NCBI GenBank assembly: GCA_913009825.1
Contig: CAJVYQ010000028.1
Coordinates: 1-62,802 of the forward strand
Reading direction: 5' to 3'
Source of the DNA: an uncultured Deferribacteres bacterium
GTDB taxonomy: Bacteria; Zhuqueibacterota; JdFR-76; DREG01
DNA: 62,802 nt
Positions 5,920 through 53,114 of the stretch are shown here, piece by piece. The first letter of the stretch is position 1. Each line of letters begins with the position of its first letter. The position numbers were made by a program, and so were the translations under genes. The notes under the pieces are model-generated. The model was not told the origin of the DNA and made no database searches. It was given only the letters and a program-made list of their open reading frames with translations.

Positions 5920-7344
5920 TTATTCTTCAAAATCCGGCCGTTCCGCTTCTTCCTGTTTTCGTTTTAAACTTTCAATTTTTTCTTTATAAAATTCATTGCC
6001 GGGATTTTTTTTCAACAGAACTTCGTAGACGCCGACGGCTTTGGCAAAATGACCCTGAGCTGCGTAAATTTCTCCCAATGTGGAAGTCACAATTGGCTCC
6101 TTTGCATGCCCGGAGGGCTTCTCTTCGGTGCTTTTTTCTTCCGGCGGTGCCGGAGATTCTTCTGTCGGCTGTTCCCGCAGCGGTTCAGCCTCTGCCCTTG
6201 CTTCATTTTCCACTTCTAAAATGCTTTTTTCAGCTTCCGTTTCTGCCGTAACGGGCGGTTCGGTTGATTCCTCGTCACCGAATACCTCCCGAACCGCTTT
6301 TTCTCTTTTTTTAATTTCCGGTCCATTCTCCGTGATGATATTTCCCTCTGCTTCGGTCCCCGGTTCCGTTTGTTCCTCTTTTGTCTCGCCGGCAAAAATA
6401 TCCTGTAATGATTCGATTTCCGTAACCGCTTCTGCGCCTTCATCCTCCGGCGTAGTAGCTATTTCCGCTTCACTCTCTTCTTCGAACTGTTCCACCCGGT
6501 CACGGATTTGGGACACAATTTCCTCTTCATCTTCCACCTTTTCCCCAACGATCTCTTCGGTTGCGTCCCCGGCTTCTTCAACGATGGGTTCCGGCTGTTC
6601 GTAAGATTCCATATCTTCCATGGTTGTTCCATCTGTTCCATCTGTTTCCTCAGCGCCGGGCGCCACTTCGTCCTGAAAAATATCATCGAGGATAAATTCG
6701 TATTGCTTATCGTCCGCTTTTGTTTCGGTTCCTTCTGTTTCTTCGGGATTCTCTTCCTCAGCGACCTCCGTTTCGGTAAAAGATGTTTCCTCTTCTGCCA
6801 AAGAACTTTCCCCAACTGTTTTTTCGCTGATGATTTCGTCAAATTCCGGAATGGTCTCTTCTTCCATGATCTCTTCTTCGAACACGACGGTTGAATCACC
6901 GGCTGTTTCCGTATCCACTGCAAGCGGTTCATCGAATACTTCTTCGGAAGCCTCTTCTAACATGGAGTGCGCTAATCGATCTAACGGATCGATAGCCAGA
7001 ATCCTCTTCAGCCAAAGAGAATATGCATTGTTCCAGCCTCGCTCTTTCATGATATTTACTTGAAAATAATGGGCGCACAGATGTTGCGGATCGTGCAACA
7101 AGGTTTTGTTGAATTCGCTTTCTGCGGAATCGAAATCACGGTTTATAAAAAAACACTGTCCGAGAACAAAGTGAGCATTTGCATAATTGGATTGATGTTC
7201 CAGTCCCCGGTTGCAAACTTTAATTGCTTCCGGAACCCGGTTCACCCGGATAAGATATTCCGCTAACCGAGCAAATTGCATACTTCGGGGATTGATAGAC
7301 ATGTGTTGTTTTAATCTGTCTATTTCCCCTGCGATCGTTTTCAT
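5920..7344 (-). CDS. Tetratricopeptide protein with a long acidic linker
   Basis: A 474-residue protein with no signal peptide. Residues about 1-135 form TPR helices (FARLAEYLIRVNRVPEAIKV, then ANAHFVLGQCFFINRDFDSA). About 135-415 is a low-complexity Glu/Thr/Ala-rich, strongly acidic linker without obvious fold. The C-terminus has one more TPR unit (TLGEIYAAQGHFAKAVGVY) and a charged tail. Such tethered TPR modules are common in FCB-group genomes and usually act as scaffolds, but no partner is named by the sequence. It is the first gene of a two-gene operon with the GT2 gene. The acidic repeat region generates long false reading frames in the other frames. Confidence 0.7.
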   Translation of the reverse strand: MKTIAGEIDRLKQHMSINPRSMQFARLAEYLIRVNRVPEAIKVCNRGLEHQSNYANAHFVLGQCFFINRDFDSAESEFNKTLLHDPQHLCAHYFQVNIMKERGWNNAYSLWLKRILAIDPLDRLAHSMLEEASEEVFDEPLAVDTETAGDSTVVFEEEIMEEETIPEFDEIISEKTVGESSLAEEETSFTETEVAEEENPEETEGTETKADDKQYEFILDDIFQDEVAPGAEETDGTDGTTMEDMESYEQPEPIVEEAGDATEEIVGEKVEDEEEIVSQIRDRVEQFEEESEAEIATTPEDEGAEAVTEIESLQDIFAGETKEEQTEPGTEAEGNIITENGPEIKKREKAVREVFGDEESTEPPVTAETEAEKSILEVENEARAEAEPLREQPTEESPAPPEEKSTEEKPSGHAKEPIVTSTLGEIYAAQGHFAKAVGVYEVLLKKNPGNEFYKEKIESLKRKQEEAERPDFEE

Positions 7345-7415
7345 AAAACCTCCCGGTTTTGTAAAATGTTCTGTGAAGATACCGGCCGGTATCTTTCAGT
7401 AAAAAAATTCTTGTA

Positions 7416-7542
7416 ACTATTCAGGTATGCCGGTTTTCTGATTTGAGATAAGCCTTTAACTCCGCTCAGGCCGGCTTTGAAAGCTATGCCGGGCGGAGTT
7501 GAAGCGTGATTACAGCTAATTAACGGAGCATACCTGAATAGT
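7416..7542. repeat. MITE-like element, family 1 (15-bp perfect terminal inverted repeats)
   Basis: ACTATTCAGGTATGC at 7416-7430 is the exact reverse complement of GCATACCTGAATAGT at 7528-7542. The 127-bp element holds an inner inverted repeat (AACTCCGCTCAGGCCGGC against GCCGGGCGGAGTT) and the word GAAGCGTGATTACAGCTAATTAA. Related copies are at 23313-23449 and 50836-50985. A degenerate copy ends near 33146 and a right end lies near 127. There is no coding capacity. The element occupies most of the gap between the TPR gene and lptE. Confidence 0.65.
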
Positions 7543-7631
7543 CAAAATTTTTTCAAATATAATGATAAATTTACGATAAATCCAGAATTATTAATAATGT
7601 AAACAATTTCATCAGCCATCGCAACAGGAAT

Positions 7632-8132
7632 TTACCAACCCGAAACGGTTTTGTTTAAAACATCTTCGGCAATCTTTTTCAATGCGTTATCAATTCCTTC
7701 CCGGCGGGCGTCTGTCGTCGGGTCCAGCACGTATTCACCCCATTGCTGCCACCTCTCTTTCCACAGCGGTTTGACATTTTTTACATCTTTCACTTCCACT
7801 TCCACTGTGATATAAACCCGGTAGGAATTGACCTTCTCGTTCTGGTTGTAATTGTATGCCTGATCCGAAACAGAAATTATTTTACCAACTACAATGGCAT
7901 CCGCCTGATTTTCACCGGCGATTTTTAACGAATTGTCGCGGGTTATCTCATTGATTACTGCATCCGTCAGTTTTTCTTTGATTTGAAATTCCGAAGATCG
8001 ATCTTCAAATAGCGGTACGGCGATGGTTTTGATATGCGGCGGTATGCTGCTTCCTTTAAATGAATAGGGACCGCACCCAATCAGAACCGCCGCAAGGAAG
8101 AAGAAACTAATTTTCCTGTAGATTGTATTCAT
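7632..8132 (-). CDS. lptE: LptE-family outer-membrane LPS-assembly lipoprotein
   Basis: A 166-residue lipoprotein. The signal ends in the lipobox VLIGC (Cys20). The mature part begins GPYSFKGSSIPPHIKTIAVPLFEDRS, the usual opening of LptE-family (PF04390-like) proteins. LptE plugs LptD and delivers lipopolysaccharide to the outer leaflet. The conserved middle (EFQIKEKLTDAVINEITRD) and the late EGIDNALKKIAEDV fit the family. Its start codon lies inside the end of the upstream sigma-54 activator gene (26-bp overlap), so the two are co-transcribed and translationally coupled. No lptD is present in the window. Confidence 0.8.
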   Translation of the reverse strand: MNTIYRKISFFFLAAVLIGCGPYSFKGSSIPPHIKTIAVPLFEDRSSEFQIKEKLTDAVINEITRDNSLKIAGENQADAIVVGKIISVSDQAYNYNQNEKVNSYRVYITVEVEVKDVKNVKPLWKERWQQWGEYVLDPTTDARREGIDNALKKIAEDVLNKTVSGW

Positions 8133-9270
8133 TTATTTTCCTGTACAATGTTCGTTCGCTGATGTTTAACAGTTTGGCAGTTTTCCGTTTGCTCCAATTT
8201 GTTTTTTTCAGGGTTTTCACAATCAACTCTTTTCCCGCCTCTTGCATGGTTTTTATTTCTTCTTCCGGTTTAACCTCTTCCGCTTGTTGAATCGTGTGTT
8301 CTGGGTTCACCGGCCGCCATTCCTGCAACGATTTGGGTTGCATGAATTGGGAAAACAGAAGCTGTTTCATCTGATCCACGTCTGATTTTAATTCCAGTAA
8401 CACCCGGTAGATCAGTTCCCGTTCTGCCTGATCGACCGATTTGTTGGTTGGTACCGGAAACCTTGATTCGGTGGTTTCTTCCGGTTTTAGGTGCCGGCTT
8501 AGAATCTGAGCATCGATTTTTTGGCCTCTTTCCAGAACAATCACACTTTGTACCAGATTACGTAATTCACGCACATTACCGGGCCACAGTTGAGAATGCA
8601 GCAGTTCGATGGCATCGGCGGTGAAACCGGCAAAATCGATGCGGTTCTCCCGGGTAAATTCACTTTGGAATTTTTCAACCAAAATTGGGATGTCTTCAAC
8701 CCTGTCCCTTAAAGGTGGGACCGTAATTTTCACAGCGTTCAGGCGAAAATAAAGGTCCTGGCGAAAATTGCCTGCCCGGACTTCTTTATCCAGATTTTTA
8801 TTGGTGGCAGCCACTATCCGGACATCCGCTTTGTAATTGGTGTTGCCGCCGACGCGCATGAACTCCTTCTCTTCCAGTACGCGCAGGACTTTAACCTGCG
8901 TGGAGAGCGGCATTTCGCCAATTTCGTCCAGGAACAACGTGCTGCCGCGGGCCATTTCAAAATAACCTTTCCTGGCCTCAACTGCACCGGTGAAAGCGCC
9001 TTTTTGATGCCCAAACAGTTCACTCTCCAAAATTCCTTCCGGGATGGCGCCGCAATTAACCGTGAACATAGTTTTATCTTTGCGCCGGCTGTGCCGGTGA
9101 AGCGCTCTGGCAACCAACTCCTTGCCGGTGCCGCTTTCTCCTTCGATGAGAACCGGAATATTGGTAGGCGCCACCTGATGAATGGTCTCCCGGATTTGCC
9201 GAATGACGCGGGAACTGCCTAAAATTTCCATGTTATCTTGAGAGCGGTTCAATGCTGGTTTCTGATTCAT
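8107..9270 (-). CDS. Sigma-54-dependent transcriptional activator (AAA+ and Fis HTH, no receiver domain)
   Basis: A 387-residue enhancer-binding protein that remodels RNA polymerase-sigma54. The AAA+ domain starts almost at the N-terminus: Walker A GESGTGKE at 44-51, the sigma54-contacting GAFTGA loop at 91-96, Walker B LFLDEIGEMP and the sensor/arginine-finger region (VAATNKNL, FRQDLYFRLNA, WPGNVREL). A linker follows, then a Fis-type helix-turn-helix at the extreme C-terminus (KRKTAKLLNISERTLYRKI). There is no response-regulator, GAF or PAS domain, so the sensory input must come from another protein or expression level. Overlap with lptE ties it to envelope biogenesis, a layout seen in other FCB-group genomes. 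Confidence 0.9.
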   Translation of the reverse strand: MNQKPALNRSQDNMEILGSSRVIRQIRETIHQVAPTNIPVLIEGESGTGKELVARALHRHSRRKDKTMFTVNCGAIPEGILESELFGHQKGAFTGAVEARKGYFEMARGSTLFLDEIGEMPLSTQVKVLRVLEEKEFMRVGGNTNYKADVRIVAATNKNLDKEVRAGNFRQDLYFRLNAVKITVPPLRDRVEDIPILVEKFQSEFTRENRIDFAGFTADAIELLHSQLWPGNVRELRNLVQSVIVLERGQKIDAQILSRHLKPEETTESRFPVPTNKSVDQAERELIYRVLLELKSDVDQMKQLLFSQFMQPKSLQEWRPVNPEHTIQQAEEVKPEEEIKTMQEAGKELIVKTLKKTNWSKRKTAKLLNISERTLYRKINEYNLQEN

Positions 9271-9543
9271 ACTGAGTGTCTTTTCTGGTTGTTTTGTATG
9301 TTCTGTCTGGCGACCGGTTACAGGATGAAGGACAGCAAAATAATTTGCGAGCCGTGTTTTACCCGGTTAATAGTTTTACACCCACCTTTAAGGGGGATTT
9401 TTTAGCTTACTTCCAGGAAAGGTGTTTATCGCTGAAAGCAATTCCTGTGACCGGGTATTTTGTCCGTCGTTCGGAACTTTTCCATTTCTTCCGGTAAAAA
9501 AATCACCAGTTTGAATTGGCAATCTCGTCTTCAATTGTTCAGC

Positions 9544-10065
9544 TTAAGTGAACATTTGCTTAATTGAATCCGGCAATGATGTAATTAAATCCGAATACGC
9601 TTCCACAATTCTGAAGATATCGGCCAAATCTTTTTGCCTTTTGCTGTTTCTTCTTTGCGTGTCCGAATAAGCCCATATTTTCCCCTTTAATACATCTTCT
9701 ACAGCGGCAACATTCATTTGATACCCTAAAACATTTTTTATTGCCGCTCTGTCGATAAAAGACTGATAGCGGGAATCGGTTTGAATCTGAATTCTCAAAT
9801 CCGATCCCGGAAATACAATATTGATGCTGTGAGTGAATTTTTTCAAAGTTGCAAATGTTTCAATTCTTTCATTCAATTTTTTTACTGAATGAACGGCAAT
9901 TACGATATCAATGTCAAGACTGACAACCGGTTCAACATAAGCATTGACCGCTAATCCACCGATCACGCAATACGGAACTTCCATCTTCCGCAACAAATCA
10001 ATAAACTGCTGCAGGATATCGGTGTTGTTGCCGGCTATTCTATTTAGAAATTCCTTTTCCGTCAT
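9544..10065 (-). CDS. AbiEii-like nucleotidyltransferase-fold protein
   Basis: A 173-residue protein with a nucleotidyltransferase signature: VIGGLAVNAY at 34-43 and the metal-binding pair Asp51/Asp53 in SLDIDIVI, then DVLKGKIWAYSD and KDLADIFRIVE, as in AbiEii/DUF1814-like toxins and solitary minimal nucleotidyltransferases. AbiEii acts with an AbiEi antitoxin in phage-resistance and toxin-antitoxin systems, but no AbiEi-like partner is adjacent. It may be an orphan or perform an unrelated nucleotidyl transfer. It sits 115 bp downstream of the epimerase gene on the same strand. Between them is a hairpin (CCGGTATA...TATACCGG, 10131-10155). Confidence 0.6.
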   Translation of the reverse strand: MTEKEFLNRIAGNNTDILQQFIDLLRKMEVPYCVIGGLAVNAYVEPVVSLDIDIVIAVHSVKKLNERIETFATLKKFTHSINIVFPGSDLRIQIQTDSRYQSFIDRAAIKNVLGYQMNVAAVEDVLKGKIWAYSDTQRRNSKRQKDLADIFRIVEAYSDLITSLPDSIKQMFT

Positions 10066-45675: not shown

Positions 45676-45688
45676 AAATGGAATGTAG

Positions 45689-45815
45689 CCCGCCCCGCCT
45701 CGTGGTAAACCACGGGGCTAAGAATAGAAAGGACGCTAAAGCGCCCTATGGGGGATAGCGCCATTTATGGCGCTTGCTCATTTGAGCCTGGTGGTTCACC
45801 ACCAAGCGGACGGGG
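45689..45815. repeat. Multi-hairpin repeat unit upstream of the Y1 transposase
   Basis: A single copy of the unit that follows the transposase in tandem. In order it contains CGTGGTAAACCACG, GGACGCTAAAGCGCCCTATG, AGCGCCATTTATGGCGCT and TGGTGGTTCACCACC, with CCCGCC near the left end and GCGGACGGGG at the right end. It lies between comEC and the transposase start, so transposase and repeats are flanked on both sides. Confidence 0.85.
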
Positions 45816-45845
45816 AAATTTTTTCAGTATAATATTCACAAAAAA

Positions 45846-46316
45846 ATGTCGGAGGTAATTGTGGCATATTGGCGTTTACATTACCATGCTGTTTGGACAT
45901 GTAAGAACCGACAACCGCTCATCACCACAGAAATTGAGGCATCTTTGCACAAATATTTACGCAATAAGGGAGCAGAATTCGGCGGAATTATGCATGCTGT
46001 TGGCGGTATCGAAAATCATGTTCATATCGTTTTTTCACTACCTCCCAAAATTTCAATCGCTGATTTTATTGGGAAATTAAAGGGTGCAAGTTCCCATTTT
46101 GTAACTCACATTTTACAAAATCAGTCTGAATTCGATTGGCAACGGGGTTATGGCGTATTTTCCTTTAATGATGGAGCAATGACAAAAATAATCGCCTATG
46201 CATTAAATCAGAAAGAACATCACCATAAAAATACAATTCGGGCTTCCTTTGAAAAATGGAGCGAAGAGGATGACGGTGTGTGTGTCTATCGGGATGAAAA
46301 CTCCGCTCCGTGGTAA
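45846..46316 (+). CDS. Y1 (HUH) transposase, IS200/RAYT-like
   Basis: A single-strand-DNA transposase of 156 residues. The HUH motif is His58-Val-His60 (ENHVHIVFS), the catalytic tyrosine is Tyr118 in IIAYALNQKEHH, and the N-terminal strand LHYHAVWTCKNRQPLI is typical of IS200/IS605 TnpA. Its position between multi-hairpin repeats, one copy upstream and seven downstream, resembles the REP-associated RAYT arrangement, in which the enzyme recognises hairpin ends. The stop codon TAA lies inside the loop of the first downstream CGTGGTAAACCACG, so the last four codons (SAPW) come from the repeat. The active-site residues are intact. No TnpB partner is present. Confidence 0.9.
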   Translation: MSEVIVAYWRLHYHAVWTCKNRQPLITTEIEASLHKYLRNKGAEFGGIMHAVGGIENHVHIVFSLPPKISIADFIGKLKGASSHFVTHILQNQSEFDWQRGYGVFSFNDGAMTKIIAYALNQKEHHHKNTIRASFEKWSEEDDGVCVYRDENSAPW

Positions 46317-47341
46317 ACCACGAGGCTAAGAATAGAAAGGACGCCAAAGCGCCCTGCGAGGGATAGCGCCATTTATGGCGCTTGCTCATTTGAACCTGGT
46401 GGTTCACCACCTGGCGGACGGGGGAAATTAAAATAACGTTTGAAATTTTAGCCTGCCCGCCCCGTGGTAAACCACGAGGCTAAGAATAGGAAGGACGCTA
46501 AAGCGCCCTATGGGGGATAGCGCCATTTATAGCGCTTGCTCATTTGAACCTGGTGGTTCACCACCTGGCGGACGGGGGAATTTAAAATAACGTTTGAAAT
46601 TTTAGCCTGCCCGCTCCGTGGTAAACCACGAGGCTAAGAATAGGAAGGACGCTAAAGCGCCCTATGTGGGATAGCGCCATTTATAGCGCTTGCTCATTTG
46701 AGCCTGGTGGTTCACCACCTGGCGGACGGGGGAAATTAAAATAACGTTTGAAATTTTAGCCTGCCCGCTCCGTGGTAAACCACGAGGCTAAGAATAGAAG
46801 GACGCTAAAGCGCCCTGTGGGGGATAGCGCCATTTATGGCGCTTGCTCATTTGAGCCTGGCGGTTCACCACCTGGCGGACGGGGGAATTTAAAAATAACG
46901 TTTGAAATTTTACCCTGCCCGCCCCGTGGTAAACCACGAGGCTAAGAATAGGAAGGACGCTAAAGCGCCCTATGGGGGATAGCGCCATTTATGGCGCTTG
47001 CTCATTTGAGCCTGGCGGTTCACCACCTGGCGGACGGGGGAAATCAAAATAACGTTTGAAATTTTACCCTACCCGCTCCGTGGTAAACCACGAGGCTAAA
47101 AATAGAAGGACGCTAAAGCGCCCTATGGGGGATAGCGCCATTTATGGCGCTTGCTCATTTGAGCATGGTGGTTCACCACCAAGCGGACGGGAGAATTTAA
47201 AATAACGTTTGAAATTTTACCCTGCCCGCCCCGTGGTAAACCACGAGGCTAAAAATAGAAAGGACGCTAAAGCGCCCTATGGGGGATAGCGCCATTTATG
47301 GCGCTTGCTCATTTGAGCCTGGCGGTTCACCACCAGGCGGA
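46301..47341. repeat. Tandem array of seven 154-bp multi-hairpin units
   Basis: The marker GTGGTAAACCAC occurs at 46310, 46464, 46618, 46772, 46926, 47080 and 47233: five intervals of 154, one intervening 154 and a last of 153. Each unit has four short palindromes (CGTGGTAAACCACG; GCTAAAGC within GGACGCTAAAGCGCCC; AGCGCCATTTATGGCGCT; TGGTTCACCA-type) and an AT-rich spacer (GAAATTAAAATAACGTTTG). Units 2 and 3 share a TTATAGCGCT variant, so some arose by duplication inside the array. It is not a CRISPR: units are long, palindromic and adjacent, with no unique spacers. Confidence 0.92.
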
Positions 47342-47413
47342 CTCCCCACAACAGACCTATTTGCAATTTTTTGGATTTTCAGTAAGAATTTGTTGAATAA
47401 TTACAAAAAAACC

Positions 47414-53000: not shown

Positions 53001-53030
53001 GCCGTGGTAAACCACGAGGCTAAGAATGGG
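53001..53030. repeat. Truncated copy of the 154-bp array unit
   Basis: CCGTGGTAAACCACGAGGCT is followed by AAGAATGGGAAG. This matches the first 25-30 bases of the units at 46301-47341, then diverges. It is an isolated 5' fragment 6 kb from the array and about 85 bp upstream of pyk. Confidence 0.75.
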
Positions 53031-53114
53031 AAGCCGAAAGCAGACAGGTGTGCACTGAAGAATTACAAAATTTGAACTGTTCTGTTATTCCTCTCACAAC
53101 ATGGAAAGCAGCTT

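Follow-up and report, generated by a model that had tools for sequence, protein, structure and literature searches.

REPs and their neighboring enzymes are a classic example of transposases that have been retained for work related to the host or to the repeat. In P. fluorescens SBW25, clusters of REPINs lie beside each of three RAYT genes, and the tandem REPIN clusters contain at most four units (Bertels and Rainey 2011, PMC3116915). CGTC-tagged REPs have been reported without any transposase association (Di Nocera 2013, PMC3733652). The TnpA-Y1 enzymes of subclass 1.2 carry the motif Y---Q--HH, are low in copy number, generally have no IS200 ends and are listed with REP association 'no' (Quentin et al. 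2018, PMC6006769); they were reported mostly in Cyanobacteria and Bacteroidetes (PMC6006769). A search of open-licence papers published after 2018 found nothing on repeats at subclass 1.2, and later descriptions may exist.

The window analyzed here is a 62,802-bp stretch of an uncultured Deferribacteres bacterium (contig CAJVYQ010000028.1), whose genome assembly comprises 5.1 Mb in 123 contigs. A transposase reading frame is open on the plus strand at 45846-46316 and encodes 156 amino acids counted from the ATG at 45846; the true start is likely the GTG at 45861, which lies behind a GGAGG. The protein matched Pfam Y1_Tnp (PF01797, E=5e-24) and the NCBIfam IS200/IS605 entry (NF033573, E=3e-21), and it contains both catalytic motifs, the HUH motif as NHVH and the tyrosine motif as YALNQKEHH. 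It also matched the PDB entry 2xm3, a TnpA that we take to be of the ISDra2 type (E=3e-9), with the focal tyrosine aligned to the TnpA tyrosine. The open frame, the family matches and the two motifs agree with the sequence-only reading that an intact HUH/Y1 transposase is present at this locus.

That reading had compared the locus with RAYT/REP systems. The RAYT motif Y---NP (NP(L/V)(R/K)xG) is absent from the focal protein, which reads Y-ALNQ, and by its motif the enzyme belongs instead to the IS200-related subclass 1.2 type. Its YALNQKEHH corresponds to the Y---Q--HH of that subclass, and Y..NQ..HH or a close variant was common to the relatives of the protein. The genome encodes three intact enzymes of this type, the focal one and two that share 30 and 39% identity with it, and no second copy of the focal gene was found in the genome assembly; low copy number and divergent paralogues are likewise features of subclass 1.2. 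In a phylogenetic tree, a 100/99 branch separated the 57 relatives of sufficient length from class-2 proteins, the relatives being chosen partly by the Y---Q--HH motif and the tree containing no subclass 1.1 sequence. Named relatives include Bacteroidales, Cloacimonadota and others. Judged by its sequence, the focal enzyme is of the TnpA-Y1 subclass 1.2 type.

Eight multi-hairpin units of about 136 bp lie beside the gene in the same orientation (plus strand), one upstream and seven downstream. The upstream unit, U0 (45686-45821), is 93% identical to U2 over 135 positions. Tandem Repeats Finder (TRF) reported the downstream array at 46303-47342 with a period of 154, 6.8 copies, 95% match and a score of 1826. 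U1 with its spacer (46303-46448) shares the last 14 nt of the gene, so that the stop codon, TAA, sits in the loop of its hairpin A. It is followed by U2, which we used as the reference unit (46449-46602), U3 (46603-46756, 97% identical to U2), U4 (46757-46910, 95%), U5 (46911-47064, 96%) and U6 (47065-47217, 93%), each with its spacer, and by the last unit, U7, which has no spacer, ends in GGCGGAC and is 94% identical to U2 over 125 positions (47218-47342). An isolated remnant of hairpin A lies elsewhere in the window, on the plus strand upstream of a pyruvate-kinase-like ORF (53002-53033, 97% over 32 nt). Start-to-start spacings were 608, which spans the gene, and then 154, 154, 153, 155, 153 and 154. 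The layout of one unit before and seven behind the transposase had been described correctly from the sequence alone, but the exact 154-bp period with only the last interval off was not confirmed: the period is 154 ± 1 and several intervals depart from it, because U4 and U6 each lack one linker base and the spacer behind U4 has one base extra.

The AT-rich spacers are homologous and nearly identical across the array units. Separate insertions would not produce such a common spacer, which indicates that the array originated by tandem duplication, as had been proposed. The amplification had further been called recent, which the divergence does not bear out. Array units differ from one another by 3-7%, and the interior units U2-U6 by 4-11 differences per 156 aligned columns, suggesting that growth of the array is not very recent. 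Two other kinds of array were considered and rejected, a CRISPR- or TIGR-like array because the spacers are near identical between units and not variable, and an integron-like attC array because no cassette genes lie between the 154-bp units and no integrase was seen by eye among the ORFs at 43-50 kb.

Each unit contains four local hairpins, A (GCCCCGTGGTAAACCACGAGGC), B (AGGACGCTAAAGCGCCCT), B2 (AGCGCCATTTATAGCGCT) and C (ACCTGGTGGTTCACCACCTGGC in U2), which in U2 occupy 46459-46480, 46492-46509, 46519-46536 and 46548-46569 of the plus strand. Hairpins A and C represent a single palindrome in opposite orientations, with the common apex GTGGTRAACCAC, and B and B2 are smaller hairpins between them. 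This inversion also allows the whole unit to fold back as one long hairpin; two inverted palindrome copies thus form one element, as in a REPIN or BIME. Folded as single-stranded RNA, the unit was more stable than 200 of 200 dinucleotide shuffles (z -3.3 on the plus and -5.4 on the minus strand). Among 25 distinct genomic copies, the four-hairpin structure had 89% of cells paired and a covariation score of 0.292, compared with 84% and 0.198 for shuffles, none of 500 of which attained the observed values. Sixteen pairs and 61 cells had changed on both sides, compared with 9.9 and 29.7 in shuffles (0 of 500 as high), and slid versions of the structure collapsed to at most 9 pairs and 22 double-changed cells; such counts are inflated by the relatedness of the sequences, and 61 cells lie well above the slid control of at most 22. 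Covariation, which extends to all four hairpins, supports the four predicted local hairpins per unit, and the long-hairpin pairing was also backed, less strongly than the local hairpins.

No constant GT[AG]G foot, as found in RAYT-associated REPs, was seen at the feet of hairpins A and C in the 25 copies, and the tetranucleotide CGTC is present 5' of hairpin C in some copies and is not constant. Membership in the GTAG-tagged and the CGTC-tagged REPs was tested and rejected. An Rfam scan of the window matched tRNA only, so the unit is not a curated RNA family.

BLAST located the unit at 56 places in the genome, comprising the 8 array units, the remnant, 5 second-strand echoes and about 42 other copies of 73-93% identity. 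The unit is therefore not confined to the array; its absence elsewhere is what the sequence-only reading had named as counting against it. The dispersed copies sit between genes in every orientation, and by a simple ORF test 29 of the 30 full-length copies checked were intergenic. Two-copy tandems away from the gene occur on contigs C53, C46, C8, C52 and C82. Even the nearest long dispersed copy matches the array units at no more than 87% identity, suggesting that the spread of the unit was not recent. The array spacer was not seen next to the dispersed copies inspected, and from these copies the unit ends could be bounded only roughly; no empty site was found. The unit thus occurs in many, mostly intergenic copies whose structure is conserved, and it is present on both sides of the gene.

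Some dispersed copies belong to subfamilies with long outer inverted repeats (TTGTTGACTTAAG...; AATTTCCGGTTAGGTTTTTGC...GCAAAAACCTAACCGGAAATT), as if they were larger MITE-like elements (L019, L020, L022, L027; L030, L033, L037, L040, L041, L044, L046). At L028, L034 and L045, half-units consisting of hairpins A and B only are joined to a long hairpin, AAGAAGCTGACCTTTT...AAAAGGTCAGCTTCT, and to CTCTGCGTCTCTGCG repeats.

The two other enzymes of the genome, on contigs C82 and C1, each have their own unit, unrelated to the focal unit. The C82 enzyme (L049, G000:C82:11500-15500, 884-2436) has three units upstream and one downstream at a spacing of about 262 bp, and diverged copies of its unit occur on five other contigs. 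The last 24 nt of the C82 gene recur three times upstream of it, and the dispersed copies on C50, C87, C29 and C76 begin with about 25 nt of the transposase 3' coding end. The peptide encoded by this repeated gene end, DERYIWG, belongs to a C-terminal motif that is frequent among family members. Since the repeated unit includes transposase coding sequence, its origin is tied to the gene. At the joints of the C82 units, GAAAAGAGAAGGAA is joined to the gene end at a GAA common to both sides. That the C82 array units keep flanking host DNA was considered and rejected, because the dispersed copies end in the same GAAAAGAGAAGGA. Recurrence of the gene end was also seen at L099 and L170. The C1 enzyme has one unit on each side, 99% identical, and no clear dispersed copies of this unit were found in the genome. 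Gene end and unit overlap at the focal, C82 and C1 loci, the focal overlap covering only the first 14 nt of U1.

Homologues of the focal unit lie beside the genes of the closest enzymes (61-65% amino acid identity), in genomes G035, G053 and G073, and likewise beside a broken enzyme gene in G077. These relatives belong to other genera and families, and the arrangements are 1+1 and 1+2: in G035 the unit occurs once upstream and twice downstream, and in G073 a part of it lies on each side. A transposase unrelated to proteins that neighbor such repeats would have argued against the sequence-only reading, and this check did not refute it. In the stretches next to the enzymes of G035, G053, G073 and G077, which reach at most 1.5 kb, neither the ComEC-like nor the PEPCK gene of the window was found. 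A comparison of 59 distinct proteins of the subclass-1.2 type detected similar flanking DNA in 5 of 1459 pairs below 45% amino acid identity, 3 of 136 at 45-55%, 15 of 71 at 55-75% and 36 of 45 at 75% or more. Unit DNA was present in 3 of the 5 other genomes with a close enzyme and in 5 of the 141 without (p=0.001), and distant relatives of the enzyme carry unrelated units. The rise of flank similarity with enzyme identity indicates that enzyme and unit travel together, and shared descent of the locus may contribute to the similar flanks among very close enzymes. Cognate, dispersed intergenic repeats that coevolve with the enzyme, a feature of RAYT systems, are thus found here. The focal unit also occurs more than once in G005, a genome of the same order (6 matches, obtained from the 5 scored of 44 candidates); two matches lie near contig ends, and no subclass-1.2-type enzyme was found in G005.

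We also surveyed repeats around genes of this type. Among 49 subclass-1.2-type loci with both flanks, gathered non-randomly by similarity to the focal protein, the same direct repeat was present on both sides at 24, any repeat at 32 and at least three copies at 17, against 7 and 1 of 43 control windows (p=2e-6 and 5e-5), these being windows of similar length from the focal window and a few other records and not matched intergenic sites. The remaining 17 of the 49 loci had no flanking repeat. With repeats at 32 of 49 loci, the description of subclass 1.2 as having no REP and generally no IS200 ends, which is descriptive and not exclusive, does not fit these loci. The most repeat-covered 120 nt beside the genes were more structured than in controls (median z -2.9 vs -0.9, p=1.6e-4). 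TRF-grade arrays of at least 2.8 copies occur at four subclass-1.2-type loci on separate branches (L049, L055, L088 and L164). In G049, a genome in five contigs, units of 190-194 bp flank the gene, 4.6 on one side and 4.1 on the other (L206, G049:C5:345000-360500, 6811-9629), and dispersed copies and further three-copy arrays of related units occur elsewhere in that genome. Subclass 1.1 loci had 3-4 copies in 2 of 8 cases, a group too small to serve as a control.

RAYT-class loci of the same phylum behaved alike, with 10, 11 and 5 of 16 having a repeat on both sides, any repeat and at least three copies. The sequence-only reading had held that RAYT/REP systems usually lack an array behind the gene, a view that these 5 loci and the known SBW25 clusters (PMC3116915) do not support. 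Since tandem REPIN clusters by RAYT genes were already known, the array layout has a precedent and is less exceptional than first claimed. At L204 (G076:C197), 6.1 tandem units of 165 bp follow a RAYT-class (Y---NP) gene.

We consider it fairly probable that the locus is a REPtron-like system on a subclass-1.2 Y1 enzyme, in which a single-copy enzyme is paired with a cognate four-hairpin REPIN-like unit and the gene-side copies have grown by tandem duplication. From the characterized ISDra2 and IS608 TnpA and the E. coli TnpA-REP, we infer that the enzyme acts on the unit: it would recognize the folded unit in single-stranded DNA and would cut beside it, and in the past it may have moved unit copies to other intergenic sites. 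Slippage, or unequal exchange between the direct repeats, would then have made the gene-side array grow and diverge. Either process suffices for the growth of the array, and rolling or single-strand copying by the enzyme may be another route. A role of the array in storing or buffering substrate is speculation. Several observations count against this REPtron-like system: no recent mobilization is evident, as the nearest dispersed copy is 87% identical, the C1 enzyme has no clear dispersed unit copies, 17 of the 49 loci have no flanking repeat, and G005 has units with no enzyme found. A wider proposal, which we advance tentatively and rate a little short of even, is that subclass-1.2 enzymes form a separate REPtron-type lineage that maintains and spreads multi-hairpin REP-like elements devoid of GT[AG]G, with a unit that includes the gene 3' end and with recurrent arrays around the gene.

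The divergence of the array units by 3-7%, the age of the dispersed copies and the two-copy tandems away from the gene on C53, C46, C8, C52 and C82 would also suit a passive satellite, in which hairpin repeats expand by replication slippage anywhere and lie near the transposase only because the element originated there, without any role today. We regard this as unlikely, because covariation points to maintenance of the fold while the unit spread and because repeats are far more frequent beside this enzyme type than in control windows. Somewhat less likely still is an IS200/IS605 element that has ordinary hairpin ends and underwent tandem duplication of the right one, the dispersed copies being its internal-deletion derivatives of the MITE/PATE type. 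The Pfam, NCBIfam and PDB matches are all to IS200/IS605 transposases, the dispersed C82 units begin within the transposase 3' coding end as a right end would, and the gene end overlaps the unit at the focal, C82 and C1 loci. However, the gene is not multicopy, the two other intact enzymes being only 30 and 39% identical to it, one directly repeated unit takes the place of distinct left and right ends on the two sides of the gene, and subclass 1.2 has been described as having no IS properties (PMC6006769).

The array could in principle be a transcriptional or RNA element that terminates or processes transcripts running antisense or reading through between three genes, the ComEC-like one, the transposase and the PEPCK gene. 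Hairpin B of each unit is terminator-like on the minus strand (45730-47278) and accounts for 8 of the 9 such sites in the region, where shuffles gave an expectation of 2.9. Nonetheless, the tails are only moderately T-rich, the terminator match recurs because the unit recurs, the dispersed copies lie between genes in all orientations and no Rfam family matched, making this explanation improbable. We give a shade less weight again to the suspicion that the copy number of the array is an artefact of draft assembly: the genome is a draft of 123 contigs and several related loci stop at a contig edge near the gene, yet the eight units carry distinguishing substitutions and indels, and a like layout exists in the five-contig genome G049.

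If subclass 1.2, so far an orphan HUH class, has cognate repeats, the partnership of enzyme and repeat extends to the IS200-like side and offers a testable substrate. Recurrent arrays in separate branches also provide natural material on the amplification of hairpin DNA in bacteria.

Compared with known systems, the focal enzyme shares with TnpA-Y1 subclass 1.2 the Y---Q--HH motif, a length of about 150 amino acids, low copy number and divergent paralogues, and differs in being flanked by multi-hairpin repeats that are also dispersed in the genome. With the IS200/IS605 elements ISDra2 and IS608 it shares the catalytic domain, the HUH and tyrosine motifs and hairpins on both sides of the gene, whereas the focal gene is not multicopy, has one directly repeated unit on both sides and has no adjoining tnpB that we could see. 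The CGTC-tagged REPs (PMC3733652) are also intergenic palindromes in inverted pairs, and CGTC precedes hairpin C in some focal copies, but the focal stem of about 10 bp and loop of 2 nt differ from their 8-9 and 4-5, and the focal tag is not constant. BIME-2 and REPIN tandem arrays likewise contain inverted palindrome pairs in tandem with conserved spacers; the focal sequence is different, has extra internal hairpins and lies beside a subclass-1.2 enzyme. The RAYT or TnpA-REP REPtrons (Nunvar 2010, PMC2817692; PMC3116915) similarly consist of a single-copy Y1 enzyme with its own coevolving intergenic palindromic repeats around it. They differ in having Y---NP where the focal enzyme has Y---Q--HH and a GT[AG]G foot that the focal repeats lack; the focal unit has four hairpins, and seven units follow the gene, compared with four REPINs in the largest ordered SBW25 cluster. 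Taken together, these comparisons suggest that what is new here is the presence of repeats at subclass 1.2, which was thought to have none, while the array layout itself was already known.
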